Origin: Spirulina subsalsa PCC 9445 | Lineage (GTDB): Bacteria > Cyanobacteriota > Cyanobacteriia > Cyanobacteriales > Spirulinaceae | Assembly: GCF_000314005.1 (NCBI RefSeq) | Contig: NZ_JH980292.1 | Span: 2,063,725-2,127,724 of the forward strand | Direction: 5' to 3' | DNA: 64,000 nt | In this document: one piece after another, positions 4,702 through 59,796 of the stretch | Layout: each line of letters begins with the position of its first letter | Position numbering within the stretch: position 1 is the stretch's first letter | The notes under the pieces: model-generated | Seen by the model: the letters and a program-made list of their open reading frames with translations, nothing else | The model's database searches: none | Told to the model about the DNA's origin: nothing | Program-made: the position numbers and the translations under genes

Positions 4702-4911
4702 AGGGAACAGGGAACGGGGAACAGGGAACAGGGGGGGGGAGGGGGAGAGGGGGAACAGGGGGGGGCAGGGGAGCAAGGGGGCAGGGGGGCAGGGGAGAGG
4801 GGGAGTTGATAATTATTCCCTATTACCTATTCCCGACTCCCGATTCCCGACTCCCGACTCCCCAACTCTCGGACTTATTCAGCAAGCCCTATGGAGGGCG
4901 TGCTGTTTACA
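4702..4911. repeat. Intergenic G-rich array ending in CAGCAAGCCCT palindrome
   Basis: The gap between the CHAT gene and ftsH holds GGGAACA-type units, long G runs, then pyrimidine-rich 7-mers (CCCGACT/CCCGATT), and ends with TTATTCAGCAAGCCCT and its imperfect inverted partner AGGGCGTGCTG (about 4879-4903). The same array-plus-palindrome recurs in many gaps of this window. The last ~100 bp before ftsH contain no repeat and should hold its promoter. No gene is visible in the gap. Confidence 0.8.
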
Positions 4912-7180: not shown

Positions 7181-9811
7181 ATGAAGCAGGAATTATTCAA
7201 TGTCTTAGCCTTCAAACGCCGTTGGAAAGGATTGCACTGGGGCAACCATGCCGTCGAAACGAACTACGCCCTTCTAGAAGCCTGTTTAATTGGGGGGGTT
7301 TCTGCGATCGCCGCCCTGCTCCTCAAAGAAGGAATCGGCATCCTCGGGCGATTCCGTCTACAACTGGTCGAAGAAACAGGAGTCTATATCCTGCCCCTCC
7401 TTGGTTTAGTTTTAGGGGGTTTAGCCGGATTCCTGCTCGAAAACCTCTCCCCCTCCGCCAAAGGGGGCGGCATCCCCCAAGTGAAAGCCGCCCTCGCCAA
7501 ATTTCCCGTCGCCCTCTCCCTCCGCGTCGCCGTAGTGAAAATGCTCGGCACCATGTTAATCCTCGGAGCAGGCATGACTTTGGGACGACGAGGCCCCACC
7601 GTCCACATCGGAGCCGCCCTTGCCGCCCAACTCAGTAATTGGGTGCCGACATCCCCCCAACACCGTCGCCAGATGATAGCCGCCGGAGCCGCCGCCGGAT
7701 TAGCCGCCGGATTTAACACCCCCATTGCTGGGGTGTTATTTGTTGTGGAGGAACTCTCCCGGGATATGTCCGGCCTAACCCTTGAAACCGCTATTCTCGC
7801 CTCCTTTACCGGATCCATCGTCTCCCGTCTCCTCGGTCCGACAGACCTTAAACTGGTCGCCAGTATCCTCCCCCTCTCTGAAACCCATTTCACCTCCCCA
7901 GAAATCCCCTTTTATTTAATTCTCGGTGCCCTGGCCGGGGTTTTGGGGGCTTTATTTAATCGGGGAATCCTCCTCTGTTTGCGTTTCTACCGATGGCTCA
8001 ATGTCTCCCTGATCTGGCAAATTGCTCTGGCCGGGCTTATTTCCGGCGCAATCATCGCCCTCTCTCCCCCCATCCTGCGGGATAATGCCGGATTGCGAGA
8101 CTTCCTGATCACGGGATACGCCACTTGGCAAAAAAGCACCTTTGTTTTTATCGCCCACTTTTGCCTGACGATTTTGGCCTACGGCTCCGGCGCACCGGGG
8201 GGACTCTTTGCCCCGGCCTTAGTTTTGGGGTCATCCTTGGGCTATTTGGTGGGTATGGCAGAGGTGGCAACCTTGGGCATCGGTTATGCCAGCACCTACG
8301 CCTTGGTAGGGATGAGTGCCTTTTTTACCGCCGTGGCTCGGGTACCGATTACGGCCATTGTCATTGTCTTTGAGATGACCGCCGACTTTACTTTAGTGTT
8401 GCCCTTAATGATTAGTTCGGTGGTGGCCTATGGGGTAGCCGAAACGATTAAAAAAGGCTCACTCTACCAACATTTACTACAAGCCAGTGGCATTGAATTG
8501 AGGGATGAGGGGACGCAAAATGAGGTGTTATCGGACTTAAAAGCGGTAGATGTGATGAAACGTCGGGTGGAGTCCTTTCGCCCCGATATGACCCTAGAAG
8601 AAGTCTTAGCGGCCTTTGCTCGTTCCGCTCATCATGGTTTCCCGGTGTTGGATGAAGAGAAGTTAGTGGGCATGGTAACGGAGGCCAATTTAGAGAATTT
8701 AGTCAGCCAAGATAGTACAACGCGCTTACAGGATATTATGACCCCGCGCCCGGTAACTGTACAGCCTGATGGGTCTTTAAGTGATGTGCTGTATTTAATG
8801 GATCGTTATCAACTAACTCATTTACCTGTCACCGAGGGGCGGCGACTATTGGGGATTATTACCCGCAGTGATTTAATTCATGCCACAGCCGATCAGTTAA
8901 AGATGACTCCGAAGACCCAAGGGGCAAAAGTCGAGCCGTCTTATTTGGTTTATCAAACTCGTTCCCCGGCTGTGGGGAAGGGGCGTTTGTTGCTGCCTTT
9001 AGCTAATCCTCAAACGGCGGAGGCTTTGGTGAAAATCGCCGGTGCGATCGCCCAACAACAGGGCTATGAGTTGGAATGTCTCCATATTGTCCTTGTGCCG
9101 CGTCATATTGCCCCCTCCCAGACCTCGGTTTCCCTGAAAAAAAGTCATCAACTCCTGAAGGATGCCAAACGAGAAGCCGCCGCTTGGGATGTTCCCCTCC
9201 ACGTGCAAATCCGACTGGCCCACAATTTAGCCCAAGCCATTTTAGAGGTAATTAATGAACGCCACATCGACCTCTTGATTATGGGCTGGAAAGGCAACAC
9301 CTCCACCCCCGGCCGCATTTTCGGCGATGTGGTGGATACCCTCATCCGTCAAGCGCCTTGTGATGTGGCGATGATTAAATTAGGGGAGGGGAAACAGAGT
9401 TTTCCCTATCGAGACTATCTCCCCACTAACTGGTTAATTCCCATTGCTGGGGGGCCAAATGTAAGACGGGCGGTGCAGTTATTACCCGGATTACAAGTCT
9501 TAGCGCGATCGCGTCATGTCTTCCTCTGTCAAGTCCATCCCCCCGACACCAACATCCCCGACACCCGCATCCTGCAAGAAATGGCCGCCCAAGTGAAGTT
9601 ACAACTCAATGCCTCGGTGTTTCCCATCCCCATCCGTTCTGCTTCTGTCTCTGATGCCATTATTCGTTTAGCGGAGTCGGAAAGTTGTCAGGTGGTGATC
9701 ATTGGGGCTAGTCGGGAGGGTTTGTTACAACAGGCCATTCATGGCAATATCCCTGAAGCCATTACTTCTGGGGTGAAAAGTACGGTGATCCTAGTGCGCA
9801 GTGCCATGTAA
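7181..9811 (+). CDS. ClC-family anion transporter with CBS pair and two Usp-like domains
   Basis: The 876-residue protein has a ClC membrane core (about 30-430), paired CBS domains (about 450-580; VMKRRVESFRPDMTLEEV and DIMTPRPVTVQPDGSL) and two universal-stress-protein-like domains at the C-terminus (about 600-745 and 750-876). It should move chloride or another anion across a membrane, with adenine-nucleotide or stress control through CBS/Usp parts. The ClC signature positions differ from the classical exchanger: GGGIP instead of GSGIP, and GRRGP instead of GREGP, so the gating glutamate is Arg; the VVEEL segment is kept. I start at ATG 7181: an upstream in-frame ATG at 7097 would add only translated CT-repeat (Pro/Ser/Leu). 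Confidence 0.9.
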   Translation: MKQELFNVLAFKRRWKGLHWGNHAVETNYALLEACLIGGVSAIAALLLKEGIGILGRFRLQLVEETGVYILPLLGLVLGGLAGFLLENLSPSAKGGGIPQVKAALAKFPVALSLRVAVVKMLGTMLILGAGMTLGRRGPTVHIGAALAAQLSNWVPTSPQHRRQMIAAGAAAGLAAGFNTPIAGVLFVVEELSRDMSGLTLETAILASFTGSIVSRLLGPTDLKLVASILPLSETHFTSPEIPFYLILGALAGVLGALFNRGILLCLRFYRWLNVSLIWQIALAGLISGAIIALSPPILRDNAGLRDFLITGYATWQKSTFVFIAHFCLTILAYGSGAPGGLFAPALVLGSSLGYLVGMAEVATLGIGYASTYALVGMSAFFTAVARVPITAIVIVFEMTADFTLVLPLMISSVVAYGVAETIKKGSLYQHLLQASGIELRDEGTQNEVLSDLKAVDVMKRRVESFRPDMTLEEVLAAFARSAHHGFPVLDEEKLVGMVTEANLENLVSQDSTTRLQDIMTPRPVTVQPDGSLSDVLYLMDRYQLTHLPVTEGRRLLGIITRSDLIHATADQLKMTPKTQGAKVEPSYLVYQTRSPAVGKGRLLLPLANPQTAEALVKIAGAIAQQQGYELECLHIVLVPRHIAPSQTSVSLKKSHQLLKDAKREAAAWDVPLHVQIRLAHNLAQAILEVINERHIDLLIMGWKGNTSTPGRIFGDVVDTLIRQAPCDVAMIKLGEGKQSFPYRDYLPTNWLIPIAGGPNVRRAVQLLPGLQVLARSRHVFLCQVHPPDTNIPDTRILQEMAAQVKLQLNASVFPIPIRSASVSDAIIRLAESESCQVVIIGASREGLLQQAIHGNIPEAITSGVKSTVILVRSAM

Positions 9812-9839
9812 TATCTGCTGAATAACACGCCTACGCTAG

Positions 9840-10358
9840 TCAATAAATACCCTGCTGTTGATTAACCCCGGAAGAATCGACCAAACTGGCTAATTGTGCG
9901 ATCGCCATTCCCGAAATTGGTTCAATCCAATCCGGTGCAATTTCCGCTAAAGGCAGCAAGACAAAAGCCCGTTGTGTCATGCGAGGATGGGGAATCTGGA
10001 GGGGGGGAGTTTCTAAAACCCAATCTTCGTATAACAGTAAGTCTAAATCTAAAGTGCGCGGCCCCCACGGTTCACGACGCACTCGCCCAAATTGACGTTC
10101 AATCTCTAGTAGTTTCCCGAGCAGTTCCCTCGGGGACAGTTCCACCTCTAACACCGCGCAACCGTTGAAATAATCGGGTTGAGGGGGACCAACGGGGGCG
10201 GTTTTGTACCAACTGGATGTTAACTTAACCTGAATGCCCGGACTCTGATTAAGGGTTGCGATCGCCTTATTTAAAATTGTCAGAGAGTCGCCAACCGGAC
10301 TGGTAAGATTACTACCGAGAGCGATCGCTACGCGACACTTCGTGAACGCACTGCGCAT
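9840..10358 (-). CDS. folK: 2-amino-4-hydroxy-6-hydroxymethyldihydropteridine pyrophosphokinase
   Basis: HPPK transfers pyrophosphate from ATP to 6-hydroxymethyl-dihydropterin in folate synthesis (cytosol). The family blocks are present: VAIALGSNL near the start, SSWYKTAPVG, the VLEVELSPRELL strand-helix, RVRREPWGPRTLDLDLLLYED (the catalytic R-W-PRTxDxDxL region) and IPHPRMTQRAFVLLPLAEIAPDW. Start chosen at the ATG ending at 10358, which has GGGGAAC 8-9 bp upstream; a longer frame to 10412 runs into a repeat and adds no family sequence. About 172 residues, normal length. It converges on the ClC gene with a 28 bp gap. Confidence 0.93.
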   Translation of the reverse strand: MRSAFTKCRVAIALGSNLTSPVGDSLTILNKAIATLNQSPGIQVKLTSSWYKTAPVGPPQPDYFNGCAVLEVELSPRELLGKLLEIERQFGRVRREPWGPRTLDLDLLLYEDWVLETPPLQIPHPRMTQRAFVLLPLAEIAPDWIEPISGMAIAQLASLVDSSGVNQQQGIY

Positions 10359-10393
10359 AAATTCTGTTCCCCATTTCAATCCGTGCAGATTAC

Positions 10394-10504
10394 TGTGACA
10401 TCCTCCCGACACCGACCCTAGGGGTACGGTGCGGGCTTCCCCATATTACTATGAGGTCTTCGGTGCTTCTACGGGAGGCTCTAGATGTCTTTTTAGGGAC
10501 ATCC
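10394..10504 (-). repeat. ~110 bp dispersed repeat, copy A (possible insertion-sequence right end)
   Basis: This block is nearly identical to 59686-59796 in the same orientation. Shared landmarks on the minus strand are ATGTCCCTAAAAAG, CATCTAGAGCCTCCCGTAGA, GAAGCCCGCAC and GTGTCGGGAGGATGTCACA. Such a conserved end-like block resembles the 3' end plus right end of IS200/IS605-type elements that carry tnpB, but no intact tnpB is here; the IS link is inference. It sits directly upstream of folK. Confidence 0.55.
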
Positions 10505-10553
10505 CTGATAACCTCTTCCTCTACAGATCGTCACTCCCTCGTAAGTGATTGTT

Positions 10554-10589
10554 GGTTAATTTTCGGGGCATCGAACCCCTCAATTAACC
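10554..10589. repeat. Strong hairpin GGTTAATT...AATTAACC with GGGG/CCCC inner stem
   Basis: An 8 bp outer arm (GGTTAATT / AATTAACC) encloses an inner GGGG(CATCGAA)CCCC stem-loop. There is no T-run, so it is not a simple terminator; it lies among mobile-element-like debris. The inner loop looks like a tRNA T-arm but no acceptor or anticodon arm can be built around it. Confidence 0.5.
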
Positions 10590-10597
10590 GTCTTTCA

Positions 10598-10665
10598 TCC
10601 CGACACTGACATTTGCTACGCAACGCTTCGCGAAGTGAACGCGAACGCACAGTGCGGGGCTTCCC
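10598..10665. repeat. Partial dispersed repeat split by a GCGTTCGC-type short repeat
   Basis: CCCGACACTGAC and AGTGCGGGGCTTCCCGAC match the inner part of the 10394-10504 repeat, but between them lies GCTACGCAACGCTTCGCGAAGTGAACGCGAACGC, of the GCGTTGCGTAGC/GCGTTCGCG short-repeat type. This looks like a third, interrupted copy. The rest of the 10359-10807 gap holds no gene that I can see. Confidence 0.45.
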
Positions 10666-10807
10666 GACGATGAGCTAACACCCTAGGTTTATCCGATGCC
10701 AAGAATCGCCGTCGCTTCAGCGCGGCGAGTGTCAAAGGTGAACCCACGGTCTAGGAATGCCCTTTTCGGTTTATGCTGAACGGGGAAACCTTCACCCCAG
10801 AGGAATC

Positions 10808-12670
10808 ATGAGTGGAATTTGTGGGATATGGCATCGCGATCGCAGCCCACTCGATAGTAGCATTTTGCACCGGATGACTGAATTTTTGGTTTACCGGGGG
10901 CGCGATAGTACCCACTGCTGGCAACAAGCAGAAATCGGTTTTGGCCATACCCTGTTACACTGTCACCAAGATAGCCAACCCGATGGCATTTGCCATTTAC
11001 CGCCCTTCTCCCTAACGGCCGATGTGCGCTTAGATAATCGTCGGGCTTTAGTCACCCAGTTACAACAAAATGATTGTCCTGTCACCCTTCACACGTCCGA
11101 CTCCCAATTACTGCTTTGGGCTTATCACACTTGGGGTAAAGCCTGCTTAGATTACCTACTCGGGGATTATGTCTTTGCCTTGTGGGATAGTCAAGCCCAG
11201 CAACTCTGGTGTGTGCGAGATCCTTTGGGAGTCAAACCCTTTTTTTTTGCCCAAGTGGGGAGCCTTTTCCTGTTTAGTAATACCCTAAACGCCCTACGTT
11301 TACATCCAGCCGTCTCGACTCAACTCAATGAAGAGGCGATCGCCGATTTCCTCCTCTTCGACTTTAACCAAACCCCCCAGACTACGGTTTTCCAAGACAT
11401 TCAACGCCTCCCCGGTGGTCATACCCTCACCTGCACTCCCCAACACTTTAACCTTCAACGTTACTGGACTCTCCCGATTCCCGAATTCCTGCCCTATCGT
11501 CGCGATGAGGACTACCTTGAACCCTTCCAACACCTAATGAATCAAGCCGTCAGCGACCGTTTACGGCGACGAGAAGCCGCCCTTTTCCTGAGTGGTGGGT
11601 TGGACTCCACTATGCTGGCACAAACCGCCTTAAACGCTATGCCAGAGGTCAATTATCAAGCCTTTACCGTCATCTATCGGGAACTCTTCAAGGATCCTGA
11701 AGGAGACTACGCTCAAATTGTCGCCAACTCCCTCCACCTCCCCCTAAAACTCATCCCGGCCGATCATTATGTGCCCTTTGAAGGGTGGCAAAATCCCGCC
11801 TTCCACCCCCCGGAACCCTACAATATTCCTTTTCTGACCCAAGACTATAGCGTTTATCAACAGGTTTTAACCCATAGTCCTGTCGTCCTCTACGGCCAAG
11901 GAAGTGATGAAGGAATGCGCCCCTCCCCCCTCACAGAATTATGCCGGGGGATGCCCCTAGGTGAGCTATTACGAGGACTAAAGCGTACTCTGTGGCACGC
12001 CCACTTAAAACCCCCCTTGGGAACCGGAATTTTAGGGAAATTGCGGGGATCCCATCGGGATATTTGGCAGGGATATCCCCAATGGTTGAACCCGGACTTT
12101 GAGCGTCGTTATGAATTGCGCGATCGCTGGCAAACCTTCGCCCAACCTCAACCTCCCTCCCCCCATCCTTGGCGCAGCAAAGCCTACTCTGATCTTCTAC
12201 AGCCCCTCTGGTGGTACAATTTTGAGGCCACAGATCCGGGTTTCTCCCGTGTCCCCCTCGAAGTTCGCTATCCTTTCCTTGACCTACGACTCCTCAACTA
12301 CCTACTCTCCCTCTCCCCCCTACCTTGGTTTATCAATAAACACCTCCTGCGTGTCACCCTACAAAAGCACCTCCCCCCCACCATTTGGCAACGTCCCAAA
12401 ACCCCCTTAGCAGGAGATCCTGTCTACATCTACCTACAAAAAGGACTCCAACCTTGGCAATCTGCCCAGCAACAACACCGAGAATTCTTGACAACCTATA
12501 TTGATTTGGACGCATTATTCTGTTTTACTCAGCAACCGAATCTACCTCCCCCTCTGGCTTGGTCAAGTTTACGTCCGGTCAGTTTAGGATATTGGTTAAA
12601 ACACTGCAAACTCCCTCACTCTGCCCTTCGCAAGGATAGGACTTCCAACAACAACTCAAGGACGGTTTAA
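10808..12670 (+). CDS. AsnB-like lasso-peptide macrolactam synthetase (C protein)
   Basis: The 620-residue protein has an N-terminal class II glutamine-amidotransferase-like domain and a C-terminal ATP-pyrophosphatase domain with the PP-loop LFLSGGLDST (about residue 260-270). In AsnB the residue after Met is the catalytic Cys; here the start reads MSGICGIW, so that position is Ser, and RGRD replaces RGPD. This fits lasso cyclases, which adenylate an Asp/Glu side chain of the core peptide and close it on the N-terminal amine. The C-terminal blocks VPLEVRYPFLDLRLL, WQRPKTPLAGDP and PVSLGYWLK are also of that type. ATG 10808 has AGAGGA directly upstream and is preferred over 10757. A lasso-type precursor lies 193 bp downstream. 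Alternative: another asparagine-synthetase-like amide synthetase. Confidence 0.85.
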   Translation: MSGICGIWHRDRSPLDSSILHRMTEFLVYRGRDSTHCWQQAEIGFGHTLLHCHQDSQPDGICHLPPFSLTADVRLDNRRALVTQLQQNDCPVTLHTSDSQLLLWAYHTWGKACLDYLLGDYVFALWDSQAQQLWCVRDPLGVKPFFFAQVGSLFLFSNTLNALRLHPAVSTQLNEEAIADFLLFDFNQTPQTTVFQDIQRLPGGHTLTCTPQHFNLQRYWTLPIPEFLPYRRDEDYLEPFQHLMNQAVSDRLRRREAALFLSGGLDSTMLAQTALNAMPEVNYQAFTVIYRELFKDPEGDYAQIVANSLHLPLKLIPADHYVPFEGWQNPAFHPPEPYNIPFLTQDYSVYQQVLTHSPVVLYGQGSDEGMRPSPLTELCRGMPLGELLRGLKRTLWHAHLKPPLGTGILGKLRGSHRDIWQGYPQWLNPDFERRYELRDRWQTFAQPQPPSPHPWRSKAYSDLLQPLWWYNFEATDPGFSRVPLEVRYPFLDLRLLNYLLSLSPLPWFINKHLLRVTLQKHLPPTIWQRPKTPLAGDPVYIYLQKGLQPWQSAQQQHREFLTTYIDLDALFCFTQQPNLPPPLAWSSLRPVSLGYWLKHCKLPHSALRKDRTSNNNSRTV

Positions 12671-12863
12671 GGTTTTTTGCTCCGACTGTTTAACAAATTT
12701 GCCGGGAATTTCCCATCCCACAAGGGGAGTGGGGATAAGAGGTACATCCAGACCGTGATAATTTGTGCTAGGATCATGGAGCCGGGTTTCCTCGGTTCAA
12801 AATGTTTGGTCAGATGCGGTCATTTCTGTTTCCGCACATGAATAGAATTCACTAGATCATCCC

Positions 12864-13025
12864 ATGACAAACCACGCCACTGAAACTGAACTCAAGCCAA
12901 AACAGCCCTATTATGCTCCTCAAGTCCAATGTTACGGGGACATTAAAACTCTGACCCAAAGTGTAGCGATTCGCGGGAATTTAGATGGTGCAGGGCCTCG
13001 GGCTGTTCCTAACCGAACTATTTAG
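12864..13025 (+). CDS. Lasso-peptide precursor (53 aa)
   Basis: This short frame encodes a 53-residue peptide whose leader matches the lasso consensus YxxPxLx3Gx5Tx at every position: Tyr16, Pro19, Val21, Gly25 and Thr31 with Gln32 as last leader residue. The predicted core is residues 33-53, beginning SVAIRGNLD and ending NRTI. Ser33 as residue 1 and Asp41 as residue 9 would give a nine-membered macrolactam, leaving GAGPRAVPNRTI as loop and tail. It follows the AsnB-like cyclase on the same strand. No strong ribosome binding site is seen before ATG 12864. The TAG stop is the first three bases of a downstream repeat element. Leader consensus and ring size are family knowledge; cleavage and cyclisation are predicted. 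Confidence 0.8.
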   Translation: MTNHATETELKPKQPYYAPQVQCYGDIKTLTQSVAIRGNLDGAGPRAVPNRTI

Positions 13026-13147
13026 GGTCTGCTGAATAACTGGGCTAGGGAACCGGGAGCAGGGGAGAGGAGGAGTTGATAATTATTCCCGATTCCCGAT
13101 TCCCCAACTCTCGGATTTATGGAGCAAGCCCTAGATAGGGCTTGCTA
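13026..13147. repeat. Repeat element with both ends visible
   Basis: The element runs from GGTCTGCTGAATAAC (left, abutting the precursor stop TAG) through GGGAGCAGGGGAGAGG and CCCGATTCCCGATTCCCC arrays to TTATGGAGCAAGCCCTA and a perfect palindrome AGCAAGCCCTA-GA-TAGGGCTTGCT. The ends are inverted copies of each other, so it resembles a small MITE or REP composite. Confidence 0.75.
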
Positions 13148-13253
13148 GATTGCTATGAGCAGCACCGCGCCCTCCCGTTGGCGCGTCCTGCCCGTGGGGC
13201 TTAGGGGAACCTTGGGAGGGAGTCCCCTGTTGATTTTGAGGAGGGGTGAAAAG

Positions 13254-13985
13254 GTGTTAGAACTGGTGGGGGTGGGTGTCCGGGAAATGGTAGGGATTGG
13301 GGGGATTGATCTACTGCGGGATCTGTCCTTTAAGTTGGAGGCTGGCGATCGCACGGTTTTGGTCGGACCGTCAGGTGCGGGGAAAACAACGCTGCTCCGT
13401 CTACTGAATCGTTTAATAAGTCCCACGATGGGACAACTCTATTTTCGTCAACAAGCCTACGGTAAAATCCCGGTGCTTGAGTTGAGGCGACAGGTGGTTT
13501 TAGTTCCCCAAGAGCCGAAATTATTGGGGATGCGAGTCCAAGATGCGATCGCCTATCCTCTCCAACTCCAACACCTCCCCCCCCGCGAAATTGACCAGCG
13601 CGTTCAAGTCTGCTGTCAGAGTTTACGCCTCCCCAATGAATGGCGAGAACGCACAGAATTACAGCTTTCCCAAGGTCAACGGCAGTTAGTGGCGATCGCC
13701 CGTGCCTTAGTGATGCAGCCCAAAGTCCTGGTACTCGACGAACCCACCTCCGCCCTCGATTTTGGTTTAGCCTCCCATCTTTTAACCGTTTTAGGGGAAT
13801 TAGACAACACCACTATCTTGATGGTTAACCACCAACTAGATTTAATATCCTCTTTTGCTCAACGGGTGCTATACCTTGAAAGCGGCATCCTACGAGAGGA
13901 TCTACCAGCTAACGCCGTTCAATGGGACCAATTGCGCGATCGCCTCCGCACTCAACAAGAACAACAACAAGCCGAGTGGGAATAA
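13254..13985 (+). CDS. ABC transporter ATP-binding protein (YbbL/FetA-like)
   Basis: A single ABC ATPase of 243 residues: Walker A GPSGAGKTTLL, Q-loop LVPQEPKLLG, signature LSQGQRQLVAIARAL, Walker B VLVLDEPTSALD and switch His in NHQLD. GTG 13254 is chosen because AGGAGGGG lies 6 bp upstream and the family fold begins there; the longer frame from 13155 starts at a repeat edge. No permease gene is adjacent, so the transported substrate is unknown; the sequence type is closest to the YbbL/FetA group known to me. It could serve export of the lasso product by position, but lasso exporters are usually full-length fused transporters, so that is weak. Confidence 0.85.
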   Translation: MLELVGVGVREMVGIGGIDLLRDLSFKLEAGDRTVLVGPSGAGKTTLLRLLNRLISPTMGQLYFRQQAYGKIPVLELRRQVVLVPQEPKLLGMRVQDAIAYPLQLQHLPPREIDQRVQVCCQSLRLPNEWRERTELQLSQGQRQLVAIARALVMQPKVLVLDEPTSALDFGLASHLLTVLGELDNTTILMVNHQLDLISSFAQRVLYLESGILREDLPANAVQWDQLRDRLRTQQEQQQAEWE

Positions 13986-14140
13986 GAAACTCCGATCTCA
14001 TCGCAGATTCCTCTTCCTCTATCCGCAATATCACGGATTTTTAAAGGCTAGAAATAATCCGTTATTTTACTTAAATAAACCTACGGATATACCAGAATAA
14101 TAACCTTACTATTCGCCAACAAAATCCGTGTATATCATGA

Positions 14141-14162
14141 ATTGTGAAAGAACTGTCACAAT
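14141..14162. promoter_or_regulatory. Inverted repeat ATTGTGA-N8-TCACAAT
   Basis: A perfect 7 bp inverted repeat with an 8 bp spacer lies about 155 bp upstream of the ATG at 14317. It resembles a CRP-family half-site pair, but the spacing is 2 bp too long for the TGTGA-N6-TCACA consensus. The remainder of the 13986-14316 gap is AT-rich and shows no gene. Confidence 0.35.
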
Positions 14163-14316
14163 ATCTTTCCGTAAACTTTACAGAAGTTATTTTTTTCGCT
14201 ATGTTAGGAACAGCCTAGAAAACTGCTAACATTCGGGACGACGAAAATAAAACAACTGCATAGATCAATCCATTACAACCGCATAACTTCAACCCTAGGG
14301 AGTAACCACAAATACG

Positions 14317-14604
14317 ATGGCACTTTCATCAGAAGACTTGATGACTCGTTCATCTATCCGCACTTATTTACATGACCTCAAAAATTCCCTCAACTTAGTT
14401 AAAAACTGTGTTGAGTTATCTAGTGACCTCACCCAAGAATTGCGTCAGCAGATCGATAACATCACCCAAGACCCCTCTTCTGGTAGTTCCATCAACCGGG
14501 AAATTAACGAAAATCTAAGCGATTTACAGCAAAACTCAGAAATCGTCCAGCGTCATAGTCATCGAATCCTCACCCTGATCCAGCGTCTTGAATTGGAACT
14601 GTAA
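14317..14604 (+). CDS. Small protein resembling a free-standing histidine-kinase DHp hairpin
   Basis: The 95-residue product begins after TAGGGAG, a good ribosome binding site. Residues ~12-30 read SIRTYLHDLKNSLNLVKN, very like the H-box of histidine kinases (H-D/E-L-K/R-N-x-L), and a second long helix (about 62-95) follows after a Gly/Ser-containing turn. There is no HATPase domain in or next to it. It could be a phosphotransfer partner, a kinase inhibitor, or simply a helical hairpin with a chance H-box. I do not recognise a named family. Confidence 0.7.
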   Translation: MALSSEDLMTRSSIRTYLHDLKNSLNLVKNCVELSSDLTQELRQQIDNITQDPSSGSSINREINENLSDLQQNSEIVQRHSHRILTLIQRLELEL

Positions 14605-24389: not shown

Positions 24390-24529
24390 GTGGGGGAGCA
24401 GGGGAGCAGGGGAGCAGGGGAGCAGGGGAGCAGGGGAGAGGCAATCTCCCGACTCCCGACTCCCGATTCCCGACTCCCGATTCCCGATTCCCGACTCCCC
24501 AACTTTCGGACTTATTCAGCAAACCCTAA
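24390..24529. repeat. GGGAGCA / CCCGACT array ending in TTATTCAGCAAACCCTA
   Basis: Six or so tandem GGGGAGCA units, then CCCGACTCCCGATT 7-mers, then GGACTTATTCAGCAAACCCTA. It lies between the rnj stop and the next gene, a full-type member of the repeat family. Confidence 0.8.
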
Positions 24530-59498: not shown

Positions 59499-59693
59499 CT
59501 ACTTTTTCCCGTCCCGTTGAGCTAACAAACGAGTCACCCGTTGTTTAATCCAAAGTCCCTCTGACTTCATGGCTTTTAATCGAGCCTCAATCCTTTCCCA
59601 TTCTCCCTCAGTAGCCATCAATAACCCCGCTTCGGCTCCTTCCCCATACCCTATCCCTCCTACAGTCAACTCCCAACAATAGGCTTGTGACAT
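59499..59693 (-). CDS. Hypothetical protein, 64 aa, started from a repeat end
   Basis: The frame begins at ATG 59693 inside the repeat end GTCGGGAGGATGTCACA, so GGGAGG is its ribosome binding site. The product (WELTVGGIGYGEGAEAGLLM..., C-terminal helix EWERIEARLKAMK) is not recognised. It may be a chance gene set up by the repeat, or a gene that the repeat captured. Confidence 0.4.
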   Translation of the reverse strand: MSQAYCWELTVGGIGYGEGAEAGLLMATEGEWERIEARLKAMKSEGLWIKQRVTRLLAQRDGKK

Positions 59694-59796
59694 CCTCCCG
59701 ACACAGACCCTACGGGTACAGTGCGGGCTTCCTCATATCACTATGAGGCTTTCCTGCTTCTACGGGAGGCTCTAGATGCCTTTTTAGGGACATCCC
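59686..59796 (-). repeat. ~110 bp dispersed repeat, copy B
   Basis: Second copy of the 10394-10504 block with matching landmarks and orientation. Its minus strand ends an open frame GDVPKKASRASRRSRKAS with a TAG stop, of the basic type seen at transposase C-termini; this is a weak hint of a tnpB remnant. Confidence 0.55.

Follow-up and report, generated by a model that had tools for sequence, protein, structure and literature searches.

A probable lasso peptide pathway with genes scattered over the chromosome in a cyanobacterial family

A question posed by this locus is whether a lasso precursor gene and a lasso cyclase gene that lie next to each other, with no leader-processing B protein nearby, are the debris of a decaying cluster or the visible part of a pathway with its peptidase encoded elsewhere. 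The original prediction, made from the window (the whole 64-kb stretch of DNA that was analysed), had offered both alternatives. We searched the genome that carries the window (G000; two contigs, 5.32 Mb, with the window on contig C2) and a sample of 291 genomes of the order, in which the window's family, probably Spirulinaceae, has 13 members, G000 counted (thresholds: E up to 1e-60 for the cyclase and up to 1e-4 for B2). On the evidence below we consider it very probable that the pair belongs to a lasso pathway whose genes are scattered over the chromosome and whose products would still cooperate in trans.

The precursor gene, A, occupies 12864–13025 on the forward strand and encodes 53 residues. 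Its predicted leader spans residues 1–32 (12864–12959) and its predicted core the following 21 residues (12960–13022), with Ser33 as core residue 1, Asp41 as core residue 9 and putative site of ring closure, and core Thr20 as the likely phosphorylation site; the computed lasso mass is 2115.166, or 2195.132 with one phosphate added. The residues from which a lasso precursor had been predicted (Tyr16, Pro19, Val21, Gly25, Thr31, Ser33 and Asp41) are all present. Counted from Ser33, Tyr16 stands at −17, Pro at −14, Val at −12 and Thr31 at −2; a YxxPxL motif at −17 is the spacing described in PMC10368454 (here and below, papers are cited for what their accessible sections state), with Val replacing Leu at −12 in the window precursor. 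Pfam gave no match to A, and the NCBIfam lasso_cyano model scored 16.9 bits, below its cut-off of 33. A precursor search of the 291 genomes matched 16, of which 12 fall within the 13-member family; a family-profile search again found A in 12 of 13 family genomes, every time beside the cyclase gene C or a kinase gene K. Compared with the sister species (G071), A has 16.2 synonymous changes in 38.2 sites and 6.8 non-synonymous changes in 120.8 (Fisher P = 1.9e-7). The concentration of matches in one family, the constant neighbours and the synonymous excess therefore argue that the precursor match is more than chance. Mean identity within the family is higher in the leader (62%) than in the core (50%), and Asp41, Asn50 and Thr52 are invariant in 13 aligned family precursors. 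The family profile detects no second precursor in the window genome.

The cyclase gene, C (10808–12670, forward strand, ATG start at 10808), encodes an AsnB-like protein of 620 aa with a PF00733 domain (2.4e-25) and GATase domains in Pfam. Its best NCBIfam match is the cyanobacterial lasso cyclase model NF033535, at 327 bits and below the cut-off of 525. Loss of the glutaminase cysteine marks lasso cyclases, and C begins Met-Ser-Gly, so that Cys2 of asparagine synthetase is replaced by Ser; SGGLDS is kept, and both Ser2-Gly3 and SGGLDS are invariant in 12 aligned cyclases. Three further AsnB-like genes of the window genome (at 6.7 and 13.3 kb on contig C1 and 0.50 Mb on C2) start Met-Cys-Gly, and C is, as judged by these motifs, the only lasso-type cyclase found there. 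The reading of this frame as an AsnB-like lasso cyclase is thus upheld, and the assignment of A and C as a predicted lasso precursor plus cyclase is supported.

The earlier statement that no B protein lies near the pair holds, as family profiles detect neither B1 nor B2 in the 64-kb window. The genome-wide search for RRE and peptidase genes that had been proposed as a check returned one of each: an overlapping, single-copy B1-B2 pair at C2:4438432–4439137, on the same contig as C and 2.36 Mb from it, so that the window genome has both an RRE-protein gene and a Cys-peptidase gene. B2 (148 aa) is a transglutaminase-like peptidase that passes the NCBIfam model lasso_biosyn_B2 (74 bits, cut-off 33), and its Cys82 and His116 are invariant in 14 aligned B2 sequences (12 from the family; G088 left out). 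B1 (97 aa, TTG start) matches the solved lasso RRE TbiB1 (1.3e-7) and scores 56 bits against the lasso PqqD model NF033536, below its cut-off of 80. The flanking genes are presumably murE-like on one side and Hsp20-like on the other, names that we took from reading the translations.

No cyclase or precursor was found in the 19 kb around B1-B2, as would be expected if these two genes served another RiPP and A-C either depended on a different peptidase for maturation or stayed unprocessed. Against this, the genome has a single Transglut_core3 match (2.2e-20), which is B2, and a single PqqD match over the cut-off (PF05402, 8.4e-14), which is B1, a second match (0.125) lying below it; nor is there a second lasso-type cyclase or, by profile, a second precursor to which the pair could be assigned. 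The other three AsnB-like genes were considered as B1-B2 partners and rejected, as they keep Cys2 and show no leader pattern in the 20 and 12 kb around them.

The separation recurs across the family. C, B1 and B2 were each found in 13 of 13 genomes and A and K each in 12; A and K were not detected in G188, which is 82% complete, and the 11 family genomes with a completeness of 90% or more all carry the five genes. At these thresholds the genes are single copies throughout, except for two precursors in the sister species. Some family C, B1 and K matches cross a stop codon; the frames have normal length, and we therefore take these stops as terminal. Core and leader are conserved in relatives that keep the cyclase, and B enzymes occur in the genomes that have the pair, the two points on which the original prediction had staked itself.

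The arrangement of the five genes differs among members. Five genomes (G071, G028, G163, G176 and G052) have C-A-K together and B1-B2 at a second site, and the window genome has three places (C-A, K and B1-B2). B1-C-A-K are together with B2 elsewhere in G105, G150 and G122, and C stands apart from both A-K and the B genes in G088, G199 and G208. In G088 the genes occupy four places on one 5.0-Mb contig (A-K at 0.476, C at 0.788, B2 at 2.286 and B1 at 2.521 Mb), and in G188 C and the B genes are on different contigs. B2 is not beside C in any of the 13 family genomes, some of these contigs being short, with little visible around the cyclase (5.3 kb in G052 and 6.5 kb in G188). The separation is no assembly gap, because it was measured on long contigs: besides G000 and G088, C and B2 of G105 are 3.68 Mb apart (1.75 Mb if the contig is circular). 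The single cluster that is usual, and not defining, for lasso pathways is thus absent from the window genome. The suggestion that a B enzyme acts in trans draws support from the presence of B1 and B2 on the same contig and from the recurrence of the separation across the family.

The original prediction named only the precursor and the cyclase; that pair stands, and a kinase gene, relocated beyond what the earlier reader could see, also belongs to the pathway. K, an HprK-like (PadeK-like) kinase, lies at about C2:2214122–2215117, 137 kb from A, and in relatives follows the precursor as a protein of ~327 aa. Its matches to Pfam Hpr_kinase_C (1.7e-5, below the cut-off) and to PDB 1jb1 (0.0035) are weak; its His-Lys-Asp-Asp motif (H139, K160, D177, D178), which is the motif of the lasso kinases PadeK and ThcoK (PMC9266682), is invariant in 13 of 13 aligned sequences. 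The window-genome copy is 90% identical to that of the sister species, in which K adjoins the precursors, and comparison of the two genomes places a break between precursor and kinase in the window genome.

Repeats mark this break. A dispersed repeat of ~112 bp at 10393–10505, upstream of C, has a second window copy at 59686–59796 and another directly 5′ of the relocated K, at the rearrangement breakpoint (L128:9001–9112); the copies are 91–94% identical. The stretch 10402–10784 begins with this repeat; the corresponding position in the sister species contains just a few dozen bases. K was likely moved by a repeat-mediated rearrangement in the window species, and the repeat is possibly, as a guess, the end of an insertion sequence. 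Copies of a second family of short repeats (~50–60 bp, 85–90% identical) occur in the window at 13085–13146, 4785–4904 and 24480–24528, and at L128:1575–1632. The repeat debris noticed earlier on both sides of the pair is therefore real, at 10393–10505 and about 13085–13146. Rfam returned nothing at 9800–14600. Five family loci, and the window genome too, encode a protein of 134–213 aa in convergent orientation to K (L128:10126–10596; L095:2415–2819); the one tested, that of L095, has no Pfam match.

Repeats on both sides, the lack of B1 and B2 from the window and the fact that the second precursor of the sister species was not found in the window genome are what a decaying remnant would leave, its peptidase genes lost and A and C persisting as debris. 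The frames are intact, however, and complete gene sets recur in the family as given above. Comparison with the sister species (Nei–Gojobori) gave dN/dS values of 0.092 for A, 0.136 for C, 0.111 for K, 0.084 for B1 and 0.176 for B2, and all five genes are thus under purifying selection. Given values of 0.08–0.18 and conservation across the family, decay is very improbable, and this alternative of the original prediction is not supported.

Relatives outside the family carry the same genes as one unit. B1-B2-C-A-K are contiguous in nine members of the order, seven of them from family f32, plus G043 and G107. In a quick cyclase tree the window family forms one group (SH-aLRT 98), with G107 and G043 as the next rows. 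The ancestral order was probably B1-B2-C-A-K; the B genes would have separated from it before K did so in the window species. In family f5, B2 lies away from the clade-I cyclase in six of six genomes (126 kb away in G093, on separate contigs in the others); because f5 cyclases group with those of f32 (96), the genes must have come apart on more than one occasion. Upstream of the detached f5 B2 (L121, L122 and L124) are two small genes that, from our reading of the sequences, look like a nucleotidyltransferase and a HEPN partner. Three f5 genomes (G034, G076 and G093; L125, L126, L226 and L229–L231) each have one lasso-type cyclase of clade I and one of clade II; both are accompanied by a precursor and a kinase, neither by such a B2, and one B2 may serve two systems there. 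G121 (L223) has two cyclases, two kinases, two precursors, one B1 and two B2 frames, one of them short, within about 12 kb.

B2 itself does not always follow the family. Those of G105, G150 and G122 are only 23–31% identical to the window genome's B2 and group with B2 of Nostoc, Acaryochloris, Pleurocapsa and Plectonema (88). Another group (98) joins four B2 of f5 to those of G130, G277 and G121. Resolution of this B2 tree is poor, with stars on 13 of its 44 branches, and the tree is compatible with a single origin of the family B2. Some lineages seem, from these sequences, to use the B2 of another lineage, as if borrowed, and it would serve this precursor. The divergence of the three means that C and the window type of B2 are lasting partners in at most 10 of the 13 family genomes. 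Across the order, all 40 cyclase-bearing genomes have a B2, compared with 32 of the 251 that lack the cyclase (P = 1e-29, a value that overstates independence, as the genomes are related). The foreign look of these three B2 and the 32 genomes with a B2 match and no such cyclase are compatible with B1-B2 serving another RiPP; the contiguity of the genes in relatives, together with the single matches in the window genome, makes this unlikely, and we favour B1-B2 as the leader-processing enzymes of A.

From the known roles of these protein families, B1 would bind the leader motif Tyr-x-x-Pro-x-Val and present the leader to K and B2; K would phosphorylate a tail hydroxyl, most likely that of Thr52 (core Thr20); B2 would cut after Gln32, leaving Thr31 at −2; and C would activate Asp41 with ATP, by adenylation, and join it to the amine of Ser33. 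The expected product has a ring of nine residues through which a tail of 12 residues is threaded. Distant genes should suffice for this if the proteins are made simultaneously. No exporter was identified for the window pathway. The ABC ATPase at 13155–13985 was set aside as a candidate, a similar protein occurring in only one of the 14 C- or A-side family loci examined (L099, about 7 kb from the precursor). In f5, an ABC protein of 604–608 aa two genes beyond K could be the exporter.

The comparison of peptides covered 28 precursors encoded next to a clade-I cyclase or kinase; the family supplied 13 of them, f32 seven and f5 six, and the other two are those of G043 and G107. G010 and G086, with weak precursor matches, were left out, as they have no cyclase at E up to 1e-60; G066 has a cyclase and no precursor was found in it, hence it supplies no core. 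The spacing from Tyr to Thr is identical in all 28. With the cut placed by Thr(−2), the conserved Asp falls on core residue 9 in 11 precursors, on 10 in 16 and on 11 in one. An acidic residue at positions 7–9, the ring sizes given for lasso peptides in a review (PMC9266682), is present in 12 of 28 cores, including one Asp10 core that also has Glu7, and absent from 16. A cut one residue later, leaving Thr at −3, would restore 9-residue rings. The first core residue is Gly, Ala, Ser or Asn, a set chosen after the data were seen, in 27 of 28 precursors at the Thr(−2) site versus 13 of 28 one residue later; for the 16 Asp10 cores the counts are 16 versus 10, and none starts with Gly. These counts favour the canonical site, without proving it, and hence predict 10-residue rings in many relatives in which the only usable Asp is at 10, the shifted cut being the other reading. 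The ring of the window peptide itself is predicted to have the ordinary nine residues.

The 16 clade-I cores with no acid at 7–9 under the Thr(−2) rule are also what would be seen if these enzymes made a macrolactam other than a classical lasso, either unthreaded or, in relatives, of another ring size. The window core, by comparison, has Ser1 and Asp9, and the best family or structure matches of C, B1 and B2 are all to lasso proteins; we therefore regard such a product as improbable and a lasso peptide as the expected one.

The tails share a feature of their own. A [K/R][T/S] pair stands among the six C-terminal residues of all 28 clade-I cores (2,000 rounds of shuffling gave a mean of 2.2 such cores and a maximum of 8; the cores are related), and all 13 family precursors have Thr as their next-to-last residue. 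Only one of the 28 ends in Ser, the residue found at the end of known kinase substrates. All five cores neighbouring clade-II cyclases end in Ser and have no such pair (a sixth, of G121, was left out because it adjoins a different cyclase of that genome); the kinases there are more distant (254–261 bits), and an acid at 7–9, Asp8, is present in two of these five cores and absent from three.

Several known systems resemble parts of this one. Paeninodin-type clusters with a kinase likewise have a B2, a cyclase of the AsnB type and a kinase of the HprK type that bears His-Lys-Asp-Asp (PMC9266682); here the genes are spread over two to four sites, and the cores finish with [K/R]-[T/S] and a few further residues instead of Ser. 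The cyanobacterial lasso cluster of Roseofilum has an equal enzyme set (98-aa RRE protein, 135-aa peptidase and 633-aa cyclase) but is described, in the accessible sections of PMC9967302, as one cluster, with no dispersed lasso enzymes. Citrulassin is a lasso pathway with a PAD tailoring enzyme encoded outside the cluster (PMC12971885), whereas here it is the leader-processing B1-B2, and in some relatives C, that lie apart from A. Some lanthipeptides have leader proteases far from the precursor (PMC8960859); in the portion of that paper available, the authors trace those proteases to general families, unlike the lasso-type proteins here, which are clustered in relatives. Metanodin provides experimental precedent for Asn1 as first ring residue (PMC12670498), as predicted for several relatives here, and BsfA, phosphorylated on Ser3, for a kinase target other than a C-terminal Ser (PMC10368454), but neither the predicted 10-residue rings nor the [K/R]-[T/S] tail site appears in the accessible text on these two peptides. 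A literature search, mostly without subscription papers, returned no dispersed lasso B1-B2 and no 10-residue lasso ring.

These results bear on how lasso pathways are found. Mining expects peptidase, RRE and cyclase to be nearby, and by that expectation the whole family would be scored as incomplete or missed. RRE-Finder reported almost 8,000 discrete lasso RRE matches, about 4,000 of them with peptidase and cyclase, and its authors suspected that the remainder might be false positives (PMC7470986, accessible part); we raise the question of whether some unpaired matches could be dispersed systems like the one described here.

Retention of all five genes in every sampled family genome that is at least 90% complete suggests a physiological role rather than that of an optional weapon. 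The graded series, from one cluster to two, three and four places, lets one ask why clusters hold together and which requirements a pathway must satisfy to survive unclustered. The full proposal, that a lasso pathway kept in all good-quality Spirulinaceae genomes of the sample is being dismantled, with an exchangeable, diffusible peptidase and, in relatives, 10-residue rings and [K/R]-[T/S] phosphorylation, is one that we put forward tentatively, at a little under an even chance for all of its parts jointly. If the Asp10 prediction is true, natural lasso rings can exceed 7–9 residues; if some lineages do replace their peptidase with that of another lineage, or share it, leader removal would be a diffusible, exchangeable service in these cyanobacteria.
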